A stretch of DNA of 64,000 nt from Streptomyces sp. HNM0575 (GCF_012726265.1 NZ_JAASAG010000014.1:1-64000); one strand, 5' to 3'. Numbered from the stretch's first letter, positions 4,682-19,301 are shown. Translations and numbers: made by a program. Notes: a model not told the origin generated them from the sequence alone.

Positions 4682-7600
4682 TCAGCGGCCGCGGGCCGCG
4701 CTCCGCATCGCGTTCCGGGTCTGCGTGACCATCGGGGTCAGCACCCGTCGCCCGCCGATCTCGTGGAACTCCGGGTCGTCGTGGGCGTATACGACCTCCT
4801 CGATCGAACGGCGCCACAGCACGGGGTGGTCGATCTGCGCCACGAGTTCCTCGCGTACCCGGTCCGTCGAGTGCGGCAGCGCCGTCGTGTTGGCGACGAC
4901 CGGGAAGGCGGGCGGTGACCAGGCCGGTTCCATACTGTCCAGCACGGCGCGGAACTCGCGGGCTGCCGGGCTCATGAACCGCGAGTGGAACGGTCCGCCC
5001 ACGTCGAGCCGCCGCACCGACCGCGCCCCGTTCGCGAGCAGCACTGAAGTCAGCGCCTCCAGATCCTCGTCGGGGCCCGCGAGGGTGTGCAGGCGGGGCG
5101 CGTTGGCCGCGGCGAGGTCCACCCGTATCGAATCGCCCTGGGCGTCGAGCAGCGTCCGCAGCTCCTCCTCCGGCAGACCGCTGACGGCGATCATTCCGCC
5201 GCCTCCGATCTTCGCCATCGCGGCGCCGCGCTCCGCGACCAGCCGCAGACCCTCGGCGAACGAGAGGACCCCGGCGGCCTCCAGGGCGTTGTACTCGCCC
5301 AGGCTGTGGCCTAGCGCCACGACCGTACGGTCCCCGTACGGGCCCTGCTCGGCCCGTTCCTCGCGCCATTCGCGAAGCGCCAGCGCGCAGACGACATAGA
5401 GCGCGGGCTGGGTGTACGCGGTGTCGCCCAGGGGGCGTCGCGGATCCCCGGCGCACACGTCCGCGATCCGGTAGCCGAGCACCTCGTCCGCCTCGGCGGT
5501 CAACTCGGGGTAGCGGGCGAGGAGTTCGCGGCCCATGCCCTCGAACTGGCTGCCCTGGCCCGGGAAGAGCAGGGCCACGGGACGCTGTTCACCGTCGCCG
5601 CCGGAGGGGGGCGCCGGAGCGGCGGGTGCGGAGGATGCGGGGGATGCGGCATGTGCGGGGGGTGCGGCGGGCTCGGTGGGCGCCGCGCGTCTGTCGGTAT
5701 GTGCGGCGTGCGGGCGCAGCGCCTCGTCGTACGCCTCCGCCAGGCCCGGCAGCCGGGGCGCGTCGAAGATGCTGAAGTGGTGCCCCGGCACCACCGCCGT
5801 TCGGAACTCCCCGGTCAGCAGCCGGCGCCAGCCCTCCGCCGTCGACGCGCCGCCGCCGTCGCCACCGTGGCCGCCGTCGTCACCGTGACCGCCCTCGCCG
5901 CCGTCAGCACCGGCGCCATCGGTACCGGCGCCGTTCCCTCCGGCGTCGGTGAGCGCAGTCAACGGCCCTTCGGGCAGGGGCTGTTCGGCCGCGAAGAGCT
6001 GCACGGGCCCGCCGTACGGCTCGGGCCGGTACTCCGCCAGGGCACGGTCGCAGACGCGCCACACGTCGTACATGGTGCGCAGCTCATGCACGACGGCGTC
6101 GCTCCAGCCGGGCGGGCGCACCGACTCGATGGCCTCGTCGGGCGTACGGACCCGGGGTTCGGACGGCGGGTCGGGAAGCTTGAACATCAGCCGCAGCAGC
6201 GGGGGATAGAGATCGAGGAACTCCTGCTCGCTGCGGACGCGTTCGCCCGTTTCTTCCGGCGGCAGGGTGTCCCACATCAGCACCCGTTCGACCTGCTCGC
6301 CCGCCGCTGTGAGCAGCCGTGCGGCCTCCAGCGCGACGGCTCCGCCCAGCGAGTAGCCGCCGATCCGGTACGGGCCGTGCTCCTGTGCCCTGCGGATGAG
6401 CCGTACGTAGTGCTCCGCCATGCGCGGAACGGTGGTCAGCGAGCCGGTGAGGGCGGCGGGGTAGGCGATGCCGTAGACGGGGCTCGGATCGCGGCTGTGG
6501 GCGGTGAGCGCCTGGGCGAAGGAGACGGAGCCGCCGGAGGGGTGGATCAGGAAGACCGGCCGGTCCGTGGGGATGCGGTCGGGGCGGCCCTCCTTGACCA
6601 GCGTGAGCGTGTCGCCGGGGTCGCCGTCGCCGCCGCGTTCGCGTTCGCGGTGGCCGACGCCGTCGCCTCGCGCGCCGCCGCTGCCGTTTCCGTTTCCGCC
6701 GCCGTCCGGGTGCGGCGGCGCTGACCGCTCGGCGACCCGTCGCGGCGTTCCGAGGCCGATGAACTGCTCCAGCGTCAACTCCGCGCCCAGGCGCTCCCGC
6801 AGCGCGTCGACGAGGCCGACGGCGTGCAGCGAGTCGCCGCCGAGCGCGAAGAAGTCGTCGTCGGGGCCCGCGGACTCGATGCCGAGGTGGGCGCGGAAGA
6901 CGCCGGTCGCGGTCGCGACGGGGTCCTCGACGGGCTCAGGTCGCTGCCCGGGCTCCGGCCGCCGCCCGGCCCCCGCCGCCCGCTGCCGCCCGGTCGGCTC
7001 CTCCCGGCCGCGCGGCTCCTCCCGGCCGCGCGACTCCTCACGGCCGGGCCGCTCCTCCCGCTCCGGTTCGATCCAGTGGCGTACGCGCCGCAGCCGCAGT
7101 CCCGGCAGCCGGATCTTCCGCGCGTTCCGTACGTCCCCGATCCGCCCCGTGTCCAGGTGCGCGTCACCGTACGATCCGCGTTCCCCGTACGCTCCCAGCT
7201 CCTCGAACCGCCCCTCCCGCACCTCATGCAGCCCCGCGACGGCCTGCCCCACGTCGCCGGCCGTCACCGCGGTGCGGTGCGCCAGCGGGACCCGGCCGTG
7301 CGCCAGCGTGTAGGCGAGATCGTCGAGCCGGGTGCGCGGATGGCGCTCCAGGTGGTCGAGGAGATCGCCGGCCGCCTCCCGTACGCGCTCCGCGTCCGGC
7401 GCGGACAGCAGCAGCACGTAGTCGCCGGCCGCCTCTTCGCGTGTGGGGAGGGCCGGTGCCCTCCGGAGCACGCAGTGCGCGTTCGTACCGCCGATGCCGA
7501 GCGAGGTGACGGCGGCCGCCTCGATGGGGTGCTCGGGCGTGAAGAGCCGCGAGTGCACGGTGAACGGCGTCTCCGGCAGCCGCAGTTCGGGATTGGGCTC

Positions 7601-8764
7601 GGTGAAGTTGGCCTGCGGCGGCACCTCTTGGTGGCGCAGCACCAGCGCCGCCTTGATGAGCCCGGCGACTCCCGCAGCCGCGTCGAGGTGCCCGATGTTG
7701 GCCTTGATGCTGCCGAGGGCGCACTCGGCGGGCGGGTCGCCGGTGCGTTCGTAGGCCTGCTGGAGGGCGGCGACCTCGATGGGGTCGCCGAGATACGTGC
7801 CCGTACCGTGCGCCTCGACGTAGCCGACCGAGGAGGCCGGGACCCCGGAGGCGTCGAGGCAGGCGCGTACGACCTCGTCCTGCCCGGCGGCGCCCGGTGC
7901 GCTGTAACCGGCCTTCGCGGAACCGTCGTTGTTGACGGCCGTGCCCGCGACGACGGCGTGTATGTGGTCGCGGTCGGCGAGCGCGTCGTCGAGGCGCTTG
8001 AGCACGACCACTCCGCAGCCGCTGCCGCGCACCATGCCCGAGGCCGCCGCGTCGAAGGGCCGGCAGTGCCCGTCGCGCGAGAACGTGCCGCCCGCCTGGT
8101 AGCGGTAGCCCGCCGACTGCGGCGTGAACACGCTGACCCCGCCGGCCACCGCGACGTCGCACCGGCCCGCGTGCAGCGCCGCGCCCGCCTGGTCTACGGC
8201 CACCAGCGAGCTGGAGCAGGCCGACTGCACGGCGACGCTCGGGCCGCGCAGGTCGAGCGCGTACGAGACGCGGGTGGCGAGGAAGTCCTTGTCGTTGCCG
8301 AGCAGTACGGGGTAGGTGAACGCCGCGTCGCGGTGCTCGGCGGAGCGCAGCACGTTGTGCAGCAGATACGAGCTGAGGCTCGTGCTGCCGAAGACTCCAA
8401 CCCGGCCCCCGTACGCGCCCGGCGTGGCCCCCGCGTCCTCCAGGGCCGCCCATACGCATTCGAGGAAGATCCGGTGCTGCGGGTCCATGAGCCGTGCCTC
8501 GGCCGGGGTGATGCCGAAGAACTCCGCGTCGAAGTCCTCGATGCCGGGCAGGTCGGCGCCGAAGGGGAGGTGGTCCGGGTCGTCGATGCGGCTGTCGGGC
8601 ACGCCCGCGGCGCGGAGTTCGTCGCGTGAGAAGCGGCGGACGGCCTCGGTGCCCGAGGAGAGCATCGACCACAGCGCGTCCACGTCCGGTGCGCCGGGGA
8701 AGCGCCCCGCCATGCCCACGATCGCGGTACGGGCGGTCGTCTCCGGGGCCGTCGCCGGGGTCAT
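4682..8764 (-). CDS. Type I PKS module with order KS-ACP-TE-AT
   Basis: This 1360-aa megasynthase has an unusual domain order. A ketosynthase (about 12-440) keeps all three catalytic residues: Cys in QSACSSS near residue 181, His in EAHGTGT and His in NIGHLDAAAG. A charged linker of repeated GREEPRGREEP-type units follows. Next come an acyl-carrier domain with the phosphopantetheine serine in GGDSLHAV near 643, a type I thioesterase with GYSLGG near 804 and a GHHFSIFD histidine, and finally a malonyl-type acyltransferase with GQGSQFEGMG and GHSLGEYNAL near 1152. The AT therefore lies after the TE and not between KS and ACP, and its motifs look like stand-alone (trans-AT) enzymes. There is no KR, DH, ER or MT. 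Its ATG overlaps the NRPS stop as ATGA, so it should extend a dipeptidyl chain by one malonate and release it. Confidence 0.92.
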   Translation of the reverse strand: MTPATAPETTARTAIVGMAGRFPGAPDVDALWSMLSSGTEAVRRFSRDELRAAGVPDSRIDDPDHLPFGADLPGIEDFDAEFFGITPAEARLMDPQHRIFLECVWAALEDAGATPGAYGGRVGVFGSTSLSSYLLHNVLRSAEHRDAAFTYPVLLGNDKDFLATRVSYALDLRGPSVAVQSACSSSLVAVDQAGAALHAGRCDVAVAGGVSVFTPQSAGYRYQAGGTFSRDGHCRPFDAAASGMVRGSGCGVVVLKRLDDALADRDHIHAVVAGTAVNNDGSAKAGYSAPGAAGQDEVVRACLDASGVPASSVGYVEAHGTGTYLGDPIEVAALQQAYERTGDPPAECALGSIKANIGHLDAAAGVAGLIKAALVLRHQEVPPQANFTEPNPELRLPETPFTVHSRLFTPEHPIEAAAVTSLGIGGTNAHCVLRRAPALPTREEAAGDYVLLLSAPDAERVREAAGDLLDHLERHPRTRLDDLAYTLAHGRVPLAHRTAVTAGDVGQAVAGLHEVREGRFEELGAYGERGSYGDAHLDTGRIGDVRNARKIRLPGLRLRRVRHWIEPEREERPGREESRGREEPRGREEPTGRQRAAGAGRRPEPGQRPEPVEDPVATATGVFRAHLGIESAGPDDDFFALGGDSLHAVGLVDALRERLGAELTLEQFIGLGTPRRVAERSAPPHPDGGGNGNGSGGARGDGVGHRERERGGDGDPGDTLTLVKEGRPDRIPTDRPVFLIHPSGGSVSFAQALTAHSRDPSPVYGIAYPAALTGSLTTVPRMAEHYVRLIRRAQEHGPYRIGGYSLGGAVALEAARLLTAAGEQVERVLMWDTLPPEETGERVRSEQEFLDLYPPLLRLMFKLPDPPSEPRVRTPDEAIESVRPPGWSDAVVHELRTMYDVWRVCDRALAEYRPEPYGGPVQLFAAEQPLPEGPLTALTDAGGNGAGTDGAGADGGEGGHGDDGGHGGDGGGASTAEGWRRLLTGEFRTAVVPGHHFSIFDAPRLPGLAEAYDEALRPHAAHTDRRAAPTEPAAPPAHAASPASSAPAAPAPPSGGDGEQRPVALLFPGQGSQFEGMGRELLARYPELTAEADEVLGYRIADVCAGDPRRPLGDTAYTQPALYVVCALALREWREERAEQGPYGDRTVVALGHSLGEYNALEAAGVLSFAEGLRLVAERGAAMAKIGGGGMIAVSGLPEEELRTLLDAQGDSIRVDLAAANAPRLHTLAGPDEDLEALTSVLLANGARSVRRLDVGGPFHSRFMSPAAREFRAVLDSMEPAWSPPAFPVVANTTALPHSTDRVREELVAQIDHPVLWRRSIEEVVYAHDDPEFHEIGGRRVLTPMVTQTRNAMRSAARGR

Positions 8765-11700
8765 CTGCGGTCACCCGCTCTCCCCGCCTCCTGCGCCGCC
8801 CTGCCCGTCTGCTGCTCCCTCCCCGTCCTGCGTGCCTGCTCCTCGGCCTCCTCCGCGCACAGCCGGTGCACATGGGCCGCGTACGTACGGACGGTGGGAT
8901 GGCCGAAGAGGTCGATCATGCGCAGCCGGGACAGGCCGAAGTCCTCGGCGACCCGCTGGTGGATGAGCGTGACGTGCAGCGACGCACCGCCGATGTCGAA
9001 GAGCCGCTCGTCGGGGTCGAGGGTGTCGACCGTGACGACGTCGCACCAGATCCTGGTGATCCGGTCCTGTACGGACTCCAGACCGGGAGCGGCGGGACCG
9101 GCAGGAGCGGCGGCACCCGGGGCGCCGGAGCCGCGGGAATCCGCGTCCGCCGCATCCGGCTCGCGCCCCGACTCCACGGCGTCCGGCGCCGCCCCGGCAC
9201 CCGGCGCTCCCTCGGCGTCCCGCGGCGCCGCGTCCGCTCCACCCGCCGCCGCCGACGGCACCGGCAGCGCCGCCCGGTCGGTCTTGCCGCCCGCGGTGAC
9301 CGGGATGCGCTCCAGCTCGGTCAGCACCCGCGGCACCATGTACGAGGGCAGCCGGTCCGCGGCCAGACGCGTCAACTCCCTTGCGGAGACGGCCCGTCCG
9401 GGCGCCGTCGTGTAGTACGCGGCCAGATACGGGCTGCCGGGACGGTCCTCGCGCCTTATCACCACGGCGTGCGTCACGTCCGGATGCGCACGCAGGGCGG
9501 CCTCGACGTCCCCCGGCTCGACGCGGAAGCCGTACAGCTTGATCTGCTCGTCGCCCCGGCCCACGTAGTCGACCGTGCCGTCCGGGCGCCAGCGGACGAG
9601 GTCGCCGGTGGCGTAGAGCCGTTCGCCCGGCGGCCCGTACGGATCCTCGGTGAAGCGCTCGGCCGTCGCCTCGGGACGGCCCAGATAGCCGTCGGCCAAC
9701 CCCGGCCCGCCCAGGTGCAGTTCGCCGACGATCCCGACGGGCACCGGCTGCCCGTGCGGGTCGAGGACACGTACCCGGGTGTTGGGCGTGGGACGGCCGA
9801 TCGGCACCGGCGCGGTCACGTCGGGCACGTCCTCGGGGCCGTTCATGACGTAGTACGTGGCGTAGGTGGTGGCCTCGGTCGGCCCGTACGCATTGATCAG
9901 CCGCATCCCCGGCGCCGCTTCGAGCGCGGCCGCGGCCAGCGCCGGATTGAGCACCTCGCCGCCCACGATCAGTGTGTGCAGCCCGCGCAGCGAGGAGGGC
10001 TCGGTCTCCGCCTGGCGGTGGAAGAGCGCCGTGGGCATGTCGGCGTGCGTGACCTCGTGCCGTGCCATGTGCGCGGCCAGCGCGTCCGGAGTCATGGGCC
10101 CCGTCGGTGGCAGTACGAGCCGTCCGCCGTTGCCGAGCGTGCCCCACATGTCGAAGGTGACGAGGTCGAAGGAGAGCGACGCCGTGAGCAGCAGCCGTGC
10201 GTCTCCGTCGACACCGGCCCAGCGCGGCGCGCCGAGCGCCAGGTCGACGACGGCGCTGTGCGGGATCTGCACGCCCTTGGGCCTCCCCGTGGAGCCCGAC
10301 GTGTAGATGACGTAGGCGATGTCGTCGCCGCGCACGGCGACCGTCGGCGCCCGTGCGGGGCTGCCGCCGATCGCGGCCCGGTCCTCTTCGAGCAGCCCGG
10401 TGGTGAGTTCGACGACGAGGTCCGCGTCCTCCGCCATGAAGGAGAGCCGGTGCTCGGGATAGGCGGGGTCGAGCGGCACGTACGCGGCACCGGTCTTGAG
10501 CACCGCGAGGAAGGCCGCCACCGCGTCGGTGCCGCGCGGCAGCCGCACGCCGACGCGGGTACCGGGCTCCGCGCCCCGCTCGGCGAGATAGTGGGCCAAC
10601 CGGTCGGCCCTGCCGACCAGTTCGCGGTAGGTGAGCGTCTCCGGCTCCTCGTCGCCCGACACCAGGGCGACGGCGTCCGGGGTGGACTCCCCCCAGCGGC
10701 CGACCAGTTCGTGCACGGCGGTCGCCGCGCCCGCCGTGCCGTGCGGTGCGGCGGAGGGCGGCCCGCCCGCGAACGTGCCGAGGATCTGGGCCTGTTCGGC
10801 CCCGGTGAGCATCGGCAGCCGCCGTACGGGCAGCCCGGGATCGGCGACGGCCGACTCCAGCAGCGTGCGGAAGTGCCCGAGCAGCCGCTCCACGGTCGTC
10901 GCGCGGAACAGGTCGGTGCTGTACTCCGCCGTCAGCCGCAGCCCGCCGCCGGGGTCGGGGATGAGGTTGACGGTCAGGTCGAACTTGGCGATGCCCGTGT
11001 CGTAGTACTCGAAGTCCGACTCGATGCCCGCGAACGTCATCTCGTGCCGGTAGACGTCCTCCGGCACCAGGCACACCTGGAGGTAGGGGTTCTCCGCCTG
11101 CGACTGCCTGTGCAGCTCCTCCAGCAGCAGGCCGTACGGGACCTGCTGGTGGGCGTAGGCGTCGGTGACGGTCCGCCGGGTGCGGGCGAGCAACTGCCGG
11201 AAGTCCGGGCCGTCGTCGGTGCCCCGGTCCGTCGCCGTTTCCGTGCCCTCCTGACTCCCGTGCTCCCCGCCGCCCAGATCGGCCCGCAGCGGCAGCATGT
11301 TGAGGTAGTAGCCGACGGAGCGTGCGGTGCGCGGGTGGTCGCGGCCGGAGAAGGGCGCCCCGGCCACCACGTCCTCGGTGCCGCAGTACCGCGACAGCAG
11401 TATGTGCAGCGCCGCGAGGAAGGCGCTGTAGCGCGTCGCCCCCGCCGAGTGGGCCAACTCGTCAATCCGCTCGGTCAGTTCGCGCGACAGCCGGCCTCGT
11501 ACGAGCGCGCCTTGGCCCGAAGGCGTCCGCGGCCGGGGGAAGTCGGCCGGCAGGTCCATGGTCTCCGGCAGCCCTTCGAGCTGCCTGCGCCAGTACGCCA
11601 CGTCCTCGTCCAGATGGCCGCCGGAGACCGACTCCTGCTGCCAGAGCGCGAATTCGGCGTACTGCCCCTCGGGCGGACCGAGCCCGGACGCCTCACCCGT

Positions 11701-14406
11701 GACGTACTCCGTGTACAGCGCGGAGAGTTCACCGAAGAGCACGTCCGCCGAAGCGCCGTCGAACGCGCTGTGGTGCAGCGCCAGCACCAGCACGTGCTCC
11801 TCCTCGCCGCACCGCAGCAGACGCGCCCGCAGATGCGGACCGCGGGAGAGGTCGAAGGGCGCGCGCAGGGTGTCGCGCACCGCCCGCTGCTCGGCCGCCG
11901 CCCGGTCCGCCTCGGGCACGTTGCGCAGGTCCTCGTCGGTCAGCGGCACCGGCCCGGCCGGCCGTACGACCTGCCGCAGCTCGCCGTCGACCGGTTCCAG
12001 GCCGGTGCGCAGCGCCTCGTGCCGCTCCACGACGGTGTCGATTGCGGAGGAGAGCGCGTCACGGTCCAGGGGGCCGCGCAGGCGGAGGGTGAGCGGCTCG
12101 TTGTAGACGGTGCTGCCGGGGTGCAGCGAGTCGTGGAACCACAGGCCGCGCTGCCCGTACGTGGCGGGGACCGGCTCTCCGGGCTCCGGGGCCCGCATCC
12201 GGGGAACCCCCGCCGTCCCGTCCTGCGACCGGCCGCCCTCCAACTGCCCGTCCTGCGACCGTACTTCGGGGGCGGGTGCGGGTGTCTCGGCGAGGGTCCG
12301 CGAGACCACTTCCTGGATGTCGGCGACGTCGTCGGCGAGCAGGACCTCCAGCACCGGCACGGGTCTGCCGAGGCGCTCCGCGAGGTCGACGGCCATCCTG
12401 CCCGCGGCGAGCGAGTCGCCGCCGTTGGCGAGGAAGGAGAGCCCGGGGTCGGGCCGGTTCCCGGAGGCGCCGCCCAGCACCTCGTTCCACAGCCGCAGCA
12501 GTTCGGGTTCGACATCGTTGTGCTGCGGGTGCTCGCTGGGCTGCGGGGCCAGTTCCGGCACGTGGGCGTCGGCGGCGAGCGCCGCCCTGTCGATCTTCCC
12601 GTGCGTCGTCAGCGGCAGCGCGTCGCGCACCACGATCCGGTGCGGGACGGCGTACCAGGGCAGCCGCTCGCGGAGCCGCTTGCGCGCGCCGGCCAGATCG
12701 GGCGAGCCACCGGCCTCGGGGACGACGTACGCGACGAGCTGGTCGGCCCCGTTCCCGCCGCCGGTGCCGTCCGTGCCGTCCGTGCTGCCCGTGCCGTCCG
12801 TGCCGCCCGGCGGGCGCTTGAGCACGACGGCCTGCGCCAGCTCCGGCTCGTCGAGCAGCGCGTGCTCCACATCGCCCGGCTCGACCCGGTGCCCGCGGAT
12901 CTTGATCATGTGGTCGACGCGGCCCAGGAAGGTGAGCATGCCGTCCCTGTCCATGCGTACGACGTCGCCGGTGCGGTAGTACGGCGTGCGCGTGCCGTCC
13001 GCCGCGGTCCGGGTGTAGAAGGCGGGGCGCTCCGCGCTCTCGCCGTGTATGTACCGGCCGACTCCGACGCCGCCGATGTGCAGCTCTCCGCGGGTGCCTC
13101 CGTCCGCGGCGGCCGCGGGGTCCGCGCGCTCGGCGCTCGGCCCGTCGCCGCCGGCGCCCCCGGCCCCGCCGGTCTGCTCGCCCCCGCCGGTCTGTTCGCT
13201 CCCGCCGGTCTGTTCGCTCCCGTCCGCGGTTCCGGCGAGGCCTTCCGGTTCCGTCTCCAGCGGCTCGACGACCAGGTCGGTGCCGCGTATCGCCATGCCG
13301 ATCGGCGTGCGCTCGGGCCCCTCGTCGTCCTCGGTCACCTCGTACATCGACACGCACACCGCCGCCTCGGTGGGCCCGTAGCCGTTGATCAGCGTCAGCG
13401 ACGGCAGCGCCCGCTTGATCTCGCCGAGCAGACCACGGGGTATCGGCTCGACCGCGACGATGATCCGCCGGAGCGACCGCAGATCGAGGCCGTCTCGCAG
13501 CCCCTGCGCCACCGCGGGCAGGAACGCCGCCGGTATGTACGCGTGCGCGATGCGCTCGTCCGCCAGCCACTGTGCGAACTCCGCGGGATGCCAGCGGCGT
13601 TCGTCGGGCGTGACGACCAGCTCGCCGCCCGAGGCCAGCGACGTCCACGTCTCCAGCACCGCCGCGTCGAAGCCCGGGCTCGCGCAGGTGCTGCACCGGC
13701 TGCCAGGGGGGAGTTCGCGGCGGGACTGGGACTCGTCGAGGAGGTTCAGGATGCCGCGGTGCTGGACCACGATGCCCTTGGGGCTGCCCGTCGACCCCGA
13801 CGTGTAGATCACGTAGGCGTCCTCGGCCGTCACCCGCGCCGAGTCCCCCCACTCCCCGCCCGCGACGTCCGGCAGATCCACGTCCGAACCGGTCGCGCCG
13901 CCCGTGCTCGTGCCGCCCGCGCTCGTGCCGCCCGCGCTCGTGCCGCCCACGCTCGGGCCGCCCGTGCTCGCGCCGTCCGCGGTCGCGGCTCCCGCCCCGG
14001 TCACGCCCTGAGCGGAGCCCCGTCCGCCGATCACGGCCGCGGGCGCCGCGTCCGCCAGGATGCTGTCGATGCGCTGCCGCGGATAGGAGAGATCGACCGG
14101 CAGATACGGCTTGCCGCAGCGCATCGCCGCCAGCGCGGAGGCCGCCTGCGACGGACCGGGCTCGATCAGTACGGCGACGGGCCCCGGCCGCCCCGCCACG
14201 AGAGGCTCCAGCCGCCGCGCCAGTGCGCGGGAAGCATCGGCCAGCTCTCCGTACGTCATCGCCGCCGCCCCGGCCCGTACGGCCACGGCCGACGGGTCGC
14301 GCCGGGCCGCAGCGTCGAAGCGGCGCAAGAGCGTGTCCGGCTGGGTGGCGCTGTTCTCCGACTGACTGCCCGGCTGGTCTCCCGGGACCACTGCCTGCTG
14401 TCTCAT
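8761..14406 (-). CDS. Dimodular NRPS, A-PCP-C-A-PCP
   Basis: This 1881-aa nonribosomal peptide synthetase begins with adenylation, so it loads its own first amino acid. A1 (about 25-640) has YTSGSTGSPKG and GYGPTEA. PCP1 has GGDSLAAG near residue 664. The condensation domain carries the intact HHSAFDG motif near 877. A2 (about 1190-1690) has YTSGSTGRPKG and NAYGPTEAT. PCP2 has DIGGASLH near 1808. Hand alignment to GrsA gives specificity residues D-A-L-Y-I-A-G-V-C for A1 and D-L-F-D-I-G-A-T-Y for A2. A1 contains Gly/Ser/Thr-rich insertions (repeats of GGTSA and of GGSEQT). No MbtH-like protein or phosphopantetheinyl transferase gene lies nearby. The ATG at 14406 has only a weak ribosome binding site, so the exact start is uncertain. 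Confidence 0.93.
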   Translation of the reverse strand: MRQQAVVPGDQPGSQSENSATQPDTLLRRFDAAARRDPSAVAVRAGAAAMTYGELADASRALARRLEPLVAGRPGPVAVLIEPGPSQAASALAAMRCGKPYLPVDLSYPRQRIDSILADAAPAAVIGGRGSAQGVTGAGAATADGASTGGPSVGGTSAGGTSAGGTSTGGATGSDVDLPDVAGGEWGDSARVTAEDAYVIYTSGSTGSPKGIVVQHRGILNLLDESQSRRELPPGSRCSTCASPGFDAAVLETWTSLASGGELVVTPDERRWHPAEFAQWLADERIAHAYIPAAFLPAVAQGLRDGLDLRSLRRIIVAVEPIPRGLLGEIKRALPSLTLINGYGPTEAAVCVSMYEVTEDDEGPERTPIGMAIRGTDLVVEPLETEPEGLAGTADGSEQTGGSEQTGGGEQTGGAGGAGGDGPSAERADPAAAADGGTRGELHIGGVGVGRYIHGESAERPAFYTRTAADGTRTPYYRTGDVVRMDRDGMLTFLGRVDHMIKIRGHRVEPGDVEHALLDEPELAQAVVLKRPPGGTDGTGSTDGTDGTGGGNGADQLVAYVVPEAGGSPDLAGARKRLRERLPWYAVPHRIVVRDALPLTTHGKIDRAALAADAHVPELAPQPSEHPQHNDVEPELLRLWNEVLGGASGNRPDPGLSFLANGGDSLAAGRMAVDLAERLGRPVPVLEVLLADDVADIQEVVSRTLAETPAPAPEVRSQDGQLEGGRSQDGTAGVPRMRAPEPGEPVPATYGQRGLWFHDSLHPGSTVYNEPLTLRLRGPLDRDALSSAIDTVVERHEALRTGLEPVDGELRQVVRPAGPVPLTDEDLRNVPEADRAAAEQRAVRDTLRAPFDLSRGPHLRARLLRCGEEEHVLVLALHHSAFDGASADVLFGELSALYTEYVTGEASGLGPPEGQYAEFALWQQESVSGGHLDEDVAYWRRQLEGLPETMDLPADFPRPRTPSGQGALVRGRLSRELTERIDELAHSAGATRYSAFLAALHILLSRYCGTEDVVAGAPFSGRDHPRTARSVGYYLNMLPLRADLGGGEHGSQEGTETATDRGTDDGPDFRQLLARTRRTVTDAYAHQQVPYGLLLEELHRQSQAENPYLQVCLVPEDVYRHEMTFAGIESDFEYYDTGIAKFDLTVNLIPDPGGGLRLTAEYSTDLFRATTVERLLGHFRTLLESAVADPGLPVRRLPMLTGAEQAQILGTFAGGPPSAAPHGTAGAATAVHELVGRWGESTPDAVALVSGDEEPETLTYRELVGRADRLAHYLAERGAEPGTRVGVRLPRGTDAVAAFLAVLKTGAAYVPLDPAYPEHRLSFMAEDADLVVELTTGLLEEDRAAIGGSPARAPTVAVRGDDIAYVIYTSGSTGRPKGVQIPHSAVVDLALGAPRWAGVDGDARLLLTASLSFDLVTFDMWGTLGNGGRLVLPPTGPMTPDALAAHMARHEVTHADMPTALFHRQAETEPSSLRGLHTLIVGGEVLNPALAAAALEAAPGMRLINAYGPTEATTYATYYVMNGPEDVPDVTAPVPIGRPTPNTRVRVLDPHGQPVPVGIVGELHLGGPGLADGYLGRPEATAERFTEDPYGPPGERLYATGDLVRWRPDGTVDYVGRGDEQIKLYGFRVEPGDVEAALRAHPDVTHAVVIRREDRPGSPYLAAYYTTAPGRAVSARELTRLAADRLPSYMVPRVLTELERIPVTAGGKTDRAALPVPSAAAGGADAAPRDAEGAPGAGAAPDAVESGREPDAADADSRGSGAPGAAAPAGPAAPGLESVQDRITRIWCDVVTVDTLDPDERLFDIGGASLHVTLIHQRVAEDFGLSRLRMIDLFGHPTVRTYAAHVHRLCAEEAEEQARRTGREQQTGRAAQEAGRAGDRR

Positions 14407-17401: not shown

Positions 17402-18676
17402 TCAGCGGGGCACGACGCCTTTCAGCCGTCTCACCGCGTCCGCGAGCACCTCTTGCTGCTTGCAGAAGGCGAAGCGTACGAAAGGCGCCCCCGCGGCCTC
17501 GTGATCGTAGAAGACCTGCGTCGGCACTGCCACGACTCCGCAGCGCTCGGGGAGCGCGAGGCAGAAGTCGATGCCCGAGCTCTCGCCGAGCGGCCGGATG
17601 TCGGTGGTCACGAAGTACGTGCCGGGTGCGCGGAAGACGCCGAAGCCGGCGTCGGACAGGCCCTGGGAGAGCAGGTCGCGCTGGGCGCGCAGGTCGTCGC
17701 GCAGCCGCGTGTAGTAGTCGTCGGGCAGCGCCAGCGCCTCCGCGACCGCGTACTGGAACGGCCCGGCCGACACATAGGTGAGGAACTGCTTCGCCGACCG
17801 CACCGCCGCCACCAGCTCCGGGGTCGACGTCACCCAGCCGACCTTCCAGCCGGTGAACGAGAAGGTCTTGCCCGCCGAGCTGACGGTGACCGTGCGCTCA
17901 CGCATGCCCGGGAACGAGGCGATGGGGATGTGCTCGCCCTCGTAGACGAGGTGCTCGTAGACCTCGTCGGTCACGGCCAGCAGCCCGCGCTCCACGCAGA
18001 GTTCCGCGATCGCGGCCAGCTCCTCGCGGCTGAGCACGGTGCCGGTGGGGTTGTGCGGGGTGTTGAGCAGGATCAGCCGGGTGCGGTCGGTGACGGCGTT
18101 GCGCAGCTCGTCCAGATCGAGCCGGAAGCGGCCCGCGGGCCGCGCGTCCCCGTCCTCCCCGGCGCTCCCGTCCCCACCGGAGTCCCCGGTGTTCCCTGTG
18201 TCCGGGCGCAGCGTGACGGGGACGCGGGTGCCGCCCGCCATGGCGATGGCCGCGGCGTAGGAGTCGTAGTACGGCTCCAGGGCGATCACCTCGTCGCCGG
18301 GCTCCAGAAGCGCGAGCAGCGCAGCGGTGATGGCCTCGGTGGCCCCCGCGGTGATCAGCACCTCGGTGTCCGGGTCGGGGTCGAGCCCGAGCCTCCCGTA
18401 CCAGCGCCGCTGATGGTCCGCGACGGCCGTGCGCAGCTCGGGGATGCCGGGGCCCGGCGGGTACTGATTGCCGCGGCCGTCGCGCAGCGCTCTCACGGCC
18501 GCTTCGCGCACGGCCTCGGGGCCGTCCGTGTCGGGGAAGCCCTGTCCGAGGTTGATCGCGCCCGTACGCACGGCGAGAGCCGACATCTCCGCGAAGATCG
18601 TGGTGCCGAACTCCGCGAGCCGCCGGTTGAGCAGCGGTCGTCCCGGAGCACGCTGATCAGCAGTCATGGCGGTCAT
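17402..18676 (-). CDS. PLP-dependent class I/II aminotransferase
   Basis: This 424-aa fold-type I enzyme has INLGQGFPDTDGP near the N-terminus, NTPHNPTGTV in the substrate site, TDEVYEHLVYEG, and the PLP lysine in SSAGKTFSFTGWK. The pattern matches the group that contains methionine/kynurenine aminotransferases and enzymes annotated as DapC-like. The natural substrate cannot be fixed from sequence. A low-complexity insert with G/D/S residues lies around 165-185. The start is either 18676 or the ATG nine bases downstream (18667). Its family overlap with kynurenine aminotransferases is notable because a kynurenine pathway operon lies 10 kb away, but the two are not linked here. Confidence 0.87.
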   Translation of the reverse strand: MTAMTADQRAPGRPLLNRRLAEFGTTIFAEMSALAVRTGAINLGQGFPDTDGPEAVREAAVRALRDGRGNQYPPGPGIPELRTAVADHQRRWYGRLGLDPDPDTEVLITAGATEAITAALLALLEPGDEVIALEPYYDSYAAAIAMAGGTRVPVTLRPDTGNTGDSGGDGSAGEDGDARPAGRFRLDLDELRNAVTDRTRLILLNTPHNPTGTVLSREELAAIAELCVERGLLAVTDEVYEHLVYEGEHIPIASFPGMRERTVTVSSAGKTFSFTGWKVGWVTSTPELVAAVRSAKQFLTYVSAGPFQYAVAEALALPDDYYTRLRDDLRAQRDLLSQGLSDAGFGVFRAPGTYFVTTDIRPLGESSGIDFCLALPERCGVVAVPTQVFYDHEAAGAPFVRFAFCKQQEVLADAVRRLKGVVPR

Positions 18677-18754
18677 CCTGCGCGAAGCTCAGCTGTTCCT
18701 CAACTCCCGCGCACGGCACGGGCCGCGCTCAGCCCGTGCACCCGGACCGCGCGG

Positions 18755-18784
18755 CACGGGGCCGCGGTGCGCCGCGGCCCCGTG
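18755..18784 (-). terminator. Strong hairpin terminator after the CHRD gene
   Basis: CACGGGGCCGCGG and CCGCGGCCCCGTG form a perfect 13-bp stem with a TGCG loop. It lies 20 bp beyond the stop of the CHRD gene in its direction of transcription. Confidence 0.8.
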
Positions 18785-18803
18785 GGTGCACGTCAGGGCT
18801 TGA

Positions 18804-19301
18804 TCAGAGTTGACCGCGTACGGCCCCTTCCGTGAACTCCGCGTTGTGGAAGTTGGTGTAGAAGGAGAACGGGTTCCGCTCGATGCCGTCCAGTTCCCAT
18901 CGGGTCAGCACCCGGGCGGCGTTCTGCGCGGTCTGGGTCTGCCGGGCCCGGATGCAGCCGTGCGCCGAGCCGTTCTCGGGAGGCGTCCTGAGCGTGACGG
19001 CGACCGGCCCGGCCTCGCCCCTCGCCCCGAAGTGGATGTGGGCGGCGGTCGGGGGAGCGATGTCGCGGACGGCGAGCGTGTAGCACAACTCGCCATGGTC
19101 GATGCGGTACTTGAGCGTGCCGGTGCCGTCGGGGTCACCGGGGCCGGGCACCTCCTGCCCGCCGTCGAGCCTCACGAGATGCGAGCCGTGGCCCCCGGCG
19201 GGCTCGGCGGCGCCCGGCGCTGCGGCGGCGGTGACGGGCGTGGAGCCGAGCAGGGCCGCGGCACCGAGTGCGGCGGCGACGGCGGCGGTGGATACGCGCA
19301 T
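18804..19301 (-). CDS. Secreted CHRD-domain protein
   Basis: This 165-aa protein begins with a Sec signal peptide: MRVSTAAVAAALGAAALLG, with likely cleavage after an AAA stretch near residue 28. The mature part is one CHRD (chordin) domain with HLVRLDGGQEVPGPG at the start and HIHFGARGEAGPVAVTL in the middle, the usual His-containing core of the fold. CHRD proteins are extracytoplasmic and of mostly unknown function in bacteria. The start at 19301 is supported by GAGGAGGA a short distance upstream; the frame is open further upstream but without signal-peptide character. It is monocistronic, with its own terminator. Confidence 0.85.
   Translation of the reverse strand: MRVSTAAVAAALGAAALLGSTPVTAAAAPGAAEPAGGHGSHLVRLDGGQEVPGPGDPDGTGTLKYRIDHGELCYTLAVRDIAPPTAAHIHFGARGEAGPVAVTLRTPPENGSAHGCIRARQTQTAQNAARVLTRWELDGIERNPFSFYTNFHNAEFTEGAVRGQL

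Follow-up and report, generated by a model that had tools for sequence, protein, structure and literature searches.

The PKS gene at 4682-8764 of the window analysed here (64,000 nucleotides, bases 1-64000 of contig 6 from Streptomyces sp. HNM0575; genome total 7.38 Mb) encodes a module of the order KS-ACP-TE-AT, in which an acyltransferase (AT) of trans-AT lineage follows the thioesterase (TE). Together with the adjoining NRPS gene, we read it as a two-gene NRPS-PKS line that combines a tethered, trans-lineage malonyl-AT, a self-loading module, tetramate release and an origin by C-terminal fusion, and we give this combined reading a probability of roughly 0.7. Established directly are the architecture, its conservation, the lineage of the AT and the integrity of the active-site residues.

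The PKS lies on the minus strand as a single open reading frame of 1360 aa, and the domain order and coordinates proposed from the DNA by an earlier, sequence-only reading are borne out by Pfam and recur in two other Streptomyces. The KS (residues 13-437, 7454-8728; ketoacyl-synt 13-261, Ketoacyl-synt_C 269-387) keeps its ACSSS, EAHGTGT and IGHLDAAAG motifs and is followed by a linker (residues 438-565, 7070-7453) with remnants of the KS-AT linker families PF22336, PF16197 and PF22621, which reach residue ~518. Between KS and ACP, Pfam finds this linker alone and no AT match, so that the same reading was also right about a complete KS and ACP lacking an intervening AT. The ACP (residues about 615-680, 6725-6922; PP-binding 627-679) has an intact GGDSL motif, and the TE (residues about 723-1017, 5714-6598; Thioesterase core 735-841) an intact active site with Ser805 in GYSLGG, Asp832 and His996. 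An Ala/Pro-rich linker (residues 1018-1060, 5585-5713), weakly conserved in comparison with the orthologue from strain WMMB 322, leads into the AT (residues about 1061-1346, 4727-5584; Acyl_transf_1 1066-1324, 92.8 bits), where Ser1154, Arg1179 and the PFHS motif (Phe1259-His1260) are in place. An AlphaFold model of ACP-TE-AT built on three sequences is of low confidence (mean pLDDT 47.6).

Had this order been a fusion or misassembly confined to HNM0575, as the sequence-only reading allowed, it should not recur, yet its call for further proteins with TE followed by AT was answered twice. A genome contig scan found a full-length KS-ACP-TE-AT orthologue of 1324 aa in Streptomyces sp. WMMB 322 (locus L009), 74% identical over the aligned stretch (68% in the best tblastn segment), and both strains share the order 135-563 gene, clpB, ybjN, PKS, NRPS, SpoIIE-type regulator and aminotransferase, with identities of 94% for ClpB, 96% for YbjN and 63-80% for the PKS-NRPS pair. 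In a third Streptomyces (G162, locus L126) the genes are ordered differently; there a KS-ACP-TE-AT protein of 1252 aa precedes an NRPS with A-PCP-C-A-PCP. Beside this third PKS (L126:11019-12064 and 17434-18981) lie genes for SnoaL-like, polyketide-cyclase-like and glutathione peroxidase proteins and two unassigned small proteins.

Since two other Streptomyces genomes share the arrangement, KS-ACP-TE-AT is a real and conserved architecture rather than a product of chance or misassembly. Between HNM0575 and WMMB 322, dN/dS is ~0.17 for the KS (dN 0.076, dS 0.458), ~0.45 for the TE core (dN 0.155, dS 0.344) and ~0.25 for the AT (dN 0.156, dS 0.628), and it is near or above 0.65 for the inter-domain linkers. 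By these rates KS, TE core and AT are constrained, the AT under purifying selection, and the linkers much less so. What might still speak for a fusion artefact, a frameshift, a misassembly or a displaced ordinary cis-AT is rarity: across 393 Streptomyces genomes searched at the DNA level, TE and AT matches lie side by side in just two, HNM0575 itself and G162. Against this stand the single open frame, the syntenic orthologue in WMMB 322, the third member in a different context and an AT that falls outside the cis clade (see below), and we regard such an explanation as scarcely credible. The fused form was absent from 247 sampled Actinomycetes genomes, the window's own excepted, and a plasmid search returned no place covering 80% of the TE-AT stretch. 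Eight other Streptomyces genomes carry clpB-ybjN without the PKS-NRPS pair, which suggests that the pair occupies a variable spot adjoining core genes; in the same eight, an aminotransferase homologue lies at most 10 kb beyond clpB-ybjN, at varying distance.

The lineage of the AT is clear from both similarity and phylogeny. Compared on its own with solved structures, it scores best with the trans-ATs DisD (206 bits), PksE (197) and PksC (184), followed by FabD-type enzymes (132), while cis-ATs reach no more than 97. A maximum-likelihood tree built from 74 AT domains groups the three fused ATs in a single clade (support 100/100), which nests within a clade of 15 rows (100/100) together with discrete ATs of Streptomyces trans-AT clusters, and a 99/98 branch separates them from the cis-ATs. 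The placement in the cis-AT clade that could have undone the sequence-only reading was therefore not seen, and a cis-AT origin is ruled out by this tree. That reading had also pointed to GHSLGEYNAL as a trans-AT-like motif; the lineage it was meant to indicate is upheld by tree and bit scores, but the motif alone is not diagnostic because FabD, too, has GHSLGE. A FabD duplicate as the source of the AT is ruled out by the position of the genome's FabD-like gene (L148) outside the fused-AT clade; at L194 the FabD-like gene adjoins genes whose size and order match FabH and FabF. The PKS resembles trans-AT PKSs in having no AT between KS and ACP, and departs from them in that its AT is not a separate polypeptide but shares the frame with KS-ACP-TE; nor is it a cis-AT modular PKS, with an AT neither between KS and ACP nor in the cis clade. 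One of the trans-AT clusters with a related discrete AT, from S. xanthii, contains HMG-CoA-synthase and enoyl-CoA-hydratase genes, which are typical of trans-AT PKS. On a S. xanthii plasmid (L146:16625-17794), a gene for a TnpB-type RNA-guided endonuclease separates the NRPS of a trans-AT cluster from its discrete AT.

AT-like acyl hydrolases do occur in trans-AT clusters, and it could be argued that the C-terminal domain is one of these, or proofreads, or serves other carriers in trans, while its own ACP is loaded by FabD. Residue criteria distinguishing malonyl-ATs from acyl hydrolases have been published (PMC11775670): in hydrolases of the PedC/PksD type the malonyl-binding Arg is replaced, usually by Gln or His, and the His preceding the catalytic Ser is often replaced as well (PMC11775670). 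The oxyanion Gln, GHSLGE, the Arg that binds malonyl (Arg1179) and PFHS are retained in all three fused ATs. The first domains of AT-AT proteins, which are acyl-hydrolase-like and lack these residues, group apart in a clade of their own, with GASLG, GCSLG or GSSLG and an altered Arg region. On these residues the fused AT is a malonyl AT, and with Arg1179 and His-Ser kept and a separate clade for the hydrolases, we rule out the latter identity. As for service in trans, an AT-less KS-ACP gene (687 aa) is found elsewhere in the HNM0575 genome (L193:3454-5517; G000:C12, about 338453-340516), with an A-domain gene (5514-7196) immediately after it, and the AT could also act on this KS-ACP; moreover, the AT-less sisters of the PKS described below (L010, L163) have no AT gene nearby within the stretches read. 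However, a cis-AT follows most modular KS domains of the genome, which leaves no obvious AT-less PKS of several modules that this AT could serve, and no such cluster was seen in the HNM0575 genome. That three species have kept the fusion also fits use in cis. We therefore consider a hydrolytic, proofreading or purely trans-serving domain improbable and favour an AT that loads the ACP of its own module.

Where did the module come from? In a quick tree with SH-aLRT support only, the KSs of the three fused proteins form a clade with that of an AT-less KS-ACP-TE from S. blattellae (L010:9998-12793, 931 aa). The large clade around them consists mostly of cis KSs, many of them from loci with an NRPS, and stands apart from the majority of KSs in trans-AT clusters. 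By this same quick tree (SH-aLRT), the KS belongs to the NRPS/PKS-hybrid group and not to the classical trans-AT KS clade. A second AT-less KS-ACP-TE (947 aa) adjoins a C-A-PCP NRPS in another genome (G034, L163:8836-11679); these two are the nearest AT-less relatives found of the HNM0575 module, L010 being the KS sister, and they differ from it in the missing AT, a C-A-PCP partner NRPS and other neighbours. The S. blattellae genes run in a row as formyltransferase-A-PCP, C-A-PCP, KS-ACP-TE and an LCM-family methyltransferase (L010:2717-13745), and this looks like a pathway to a formylated, possibly O-methylated tetramate. Around the G034 module (L163:631-16950) we read genes for acyl-CoA-dehydrogenase-like, aldehyde-dehydrogenase-like, class III aminotransferase and alpha-oxoamine-synthase-like proteins, and the locus is likely an unexplored NRPS-PKS cluster.

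The most economical history is that an AT-less KS-ACP-TE module, dependent on an AT in trans, would have gained one of trans lineage by C-terminal gene fusion in Streptomyces, although with present sampling the AT-less sisters may instead have lost theirs. The sequence-only reading had pictured an AT-less module and the trans-acting AT belonging to it as captured jointly in one fusion. Gain of a trans-lineage AT is supported by our data; that it was the module's own does not follow from them, given a hybrid-type KS and an AT that finds its closest relatives in large trans-AT clusters elsewhere.

The partner NRPS (8761-14406, minus strand, 1881 aa) ends 4 bases into the PKS gene and has the order A-PCP-C-A-PCP: a loading A domain (A1, 12547-14334), PCP1 (GGDSL, 12292-12501, approximate bounds, assigned from sequence and homology), a condensation domain with HHxxxDG (10780-12171), A2 (9253-10716) and PCP2 (8869-9066). 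It contains no epimerase and no starter C domain, and the A1 and A2 pocket codes, read by eye as DALYIAGVCK and DLFDIGATYK, gave no confident match to any specificity. In the line we propose, the NRPS would build a PCP-bound dipeptide, the C-terminal AT would place malonyl-CoA on the ACP of the same module - by stretching back beyond the TE or crossing the KS dimer - and the KS would join dipeptidyl-PCP to malonyl-ACP. The TE would then free the resulting beta-keto thioester; most likely the amide nitrogen of residue 2 would attack it, giving an N-aminoacyl pyrrolidine-2,4-dione (tetramate) much as in MucE. Since the two proteins between them offer a dipeptide, a single malonate and a TE, this is probably the product.

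Support for this comes from MucE of the mutanocyclin pathway, a KS-ACP-TE without AT that joins malonyl-ACP to an N-acyl-Leu thioester and forms a lactam to close the tetramate; in the assay, PksC added in trans loaded its malonyl group (PMC10161427). MucE and the reutericyclin PKS resemble the HNM0575 module as terminal post-NRPS modules of KS-ACP-TE order with an AT-free KS-ACP and a malonyl extender, the comparison with MucE being one of architecture: in both, KS-ACP-TE comes after an NRPS. They part where the HNM0575 module brings its own malonyl AT, where MucD, the partner of MucE, is a starter C-A-PCP instead of A-PCP-C-A-PCP, and where MucE takes an N-acylated D-Leu (PMC10161427), for which the HNM0575 NRPS has neither epimerase nor starter C domain. 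In althiomycin Alb5/AlmB, too, an NRPS leads into a single malonate PKS module with TE, giving a pyrrolinone, albeit in a much larger line with tailoring enzymes and an AT in the domain key; the passages considered here report no AT after the TE (PMC3445576).

It is conceivable, if rather doubtful to our minds, that architecture and AT role stand as described but the TE simply hydrolyses the beta-keto thioester to a beta-keto acid, so that a decarboxylated dipeptidyl methyl ketone results or cyclisation takes place elsewhere and no tetramate is made; this is the chief alternative for the product. In its favour, the TE matches type I thioesterases of the ordinary sort and its triad is intact, and methyltransferase or other tailoring genes of the kind that signal tetramate biosynthesis are missing from the window locus. 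Set against this, the post-NRPS KS-ACP-TE with a known product, MucE, yields a pyrrolidine-2,4-dione (PMC10161427), the terminal PKS module of althiomycin yields a pyrrolinone (PMC3445576), and a methyltransferase-family gene (Pfam LCM) adjoins the KS-ACP-TE of S. blattellae. We thus keep tetramate release as the preferred reading.

Trans-AT acyltransferase fusions on record comprise AT-ER, AT-AH, AH-AT, AH-AT-ER and AT-TEII (PMC11775670). DisD, PksC, PksE and KirCI share the lineage of the HNM0575 AT, which bears the malonyl-AT signature, but the trans-ATs known so far stand alone or are joined to ER, AH or TEII (PMC11775670), whereas here the AT stands behind a complete KS-ACP-TE. In a search of the open full-text literature, the order KS-ACP-TE-AT turned up only as a fungal annotation (PMC12634532): IgPKS3 of Inonotus glomeratus shares the label, yet it is fungal and automatically annotated and gives no sign of common origin. 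Whether we have before us a trans-AT turned cis-acting that loads its own ACP from behind a TE - a geometry that none of the papers found describes - and hence a group of self-sufficient tetramate synthases in Streptomyces, we consider evenly balanced.

With few trans-AT acyltransferase fusions described so far (PMC11775670), a trans-lineage AT placed C-terminally to a TE suggests that an AT can serve a module from outside the KS-AT linker fold. The pair may offer a compact natural NRPS-PKS system for AT-ACP recognition tests and engineering, possibly towards tetramate-type products, and having AT-less and AT-fused relatives within one genus makes the transition from trans to cis directly testable. 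Finally, both PKS and NRPS (4682-14406) hold Gly/Ala/Thr-rich insertions that are much shorter in WMMB 322; among them, a Gly-rich insert in the TE (PKS residues about 936-975) is specific to the HNM0575 genome.
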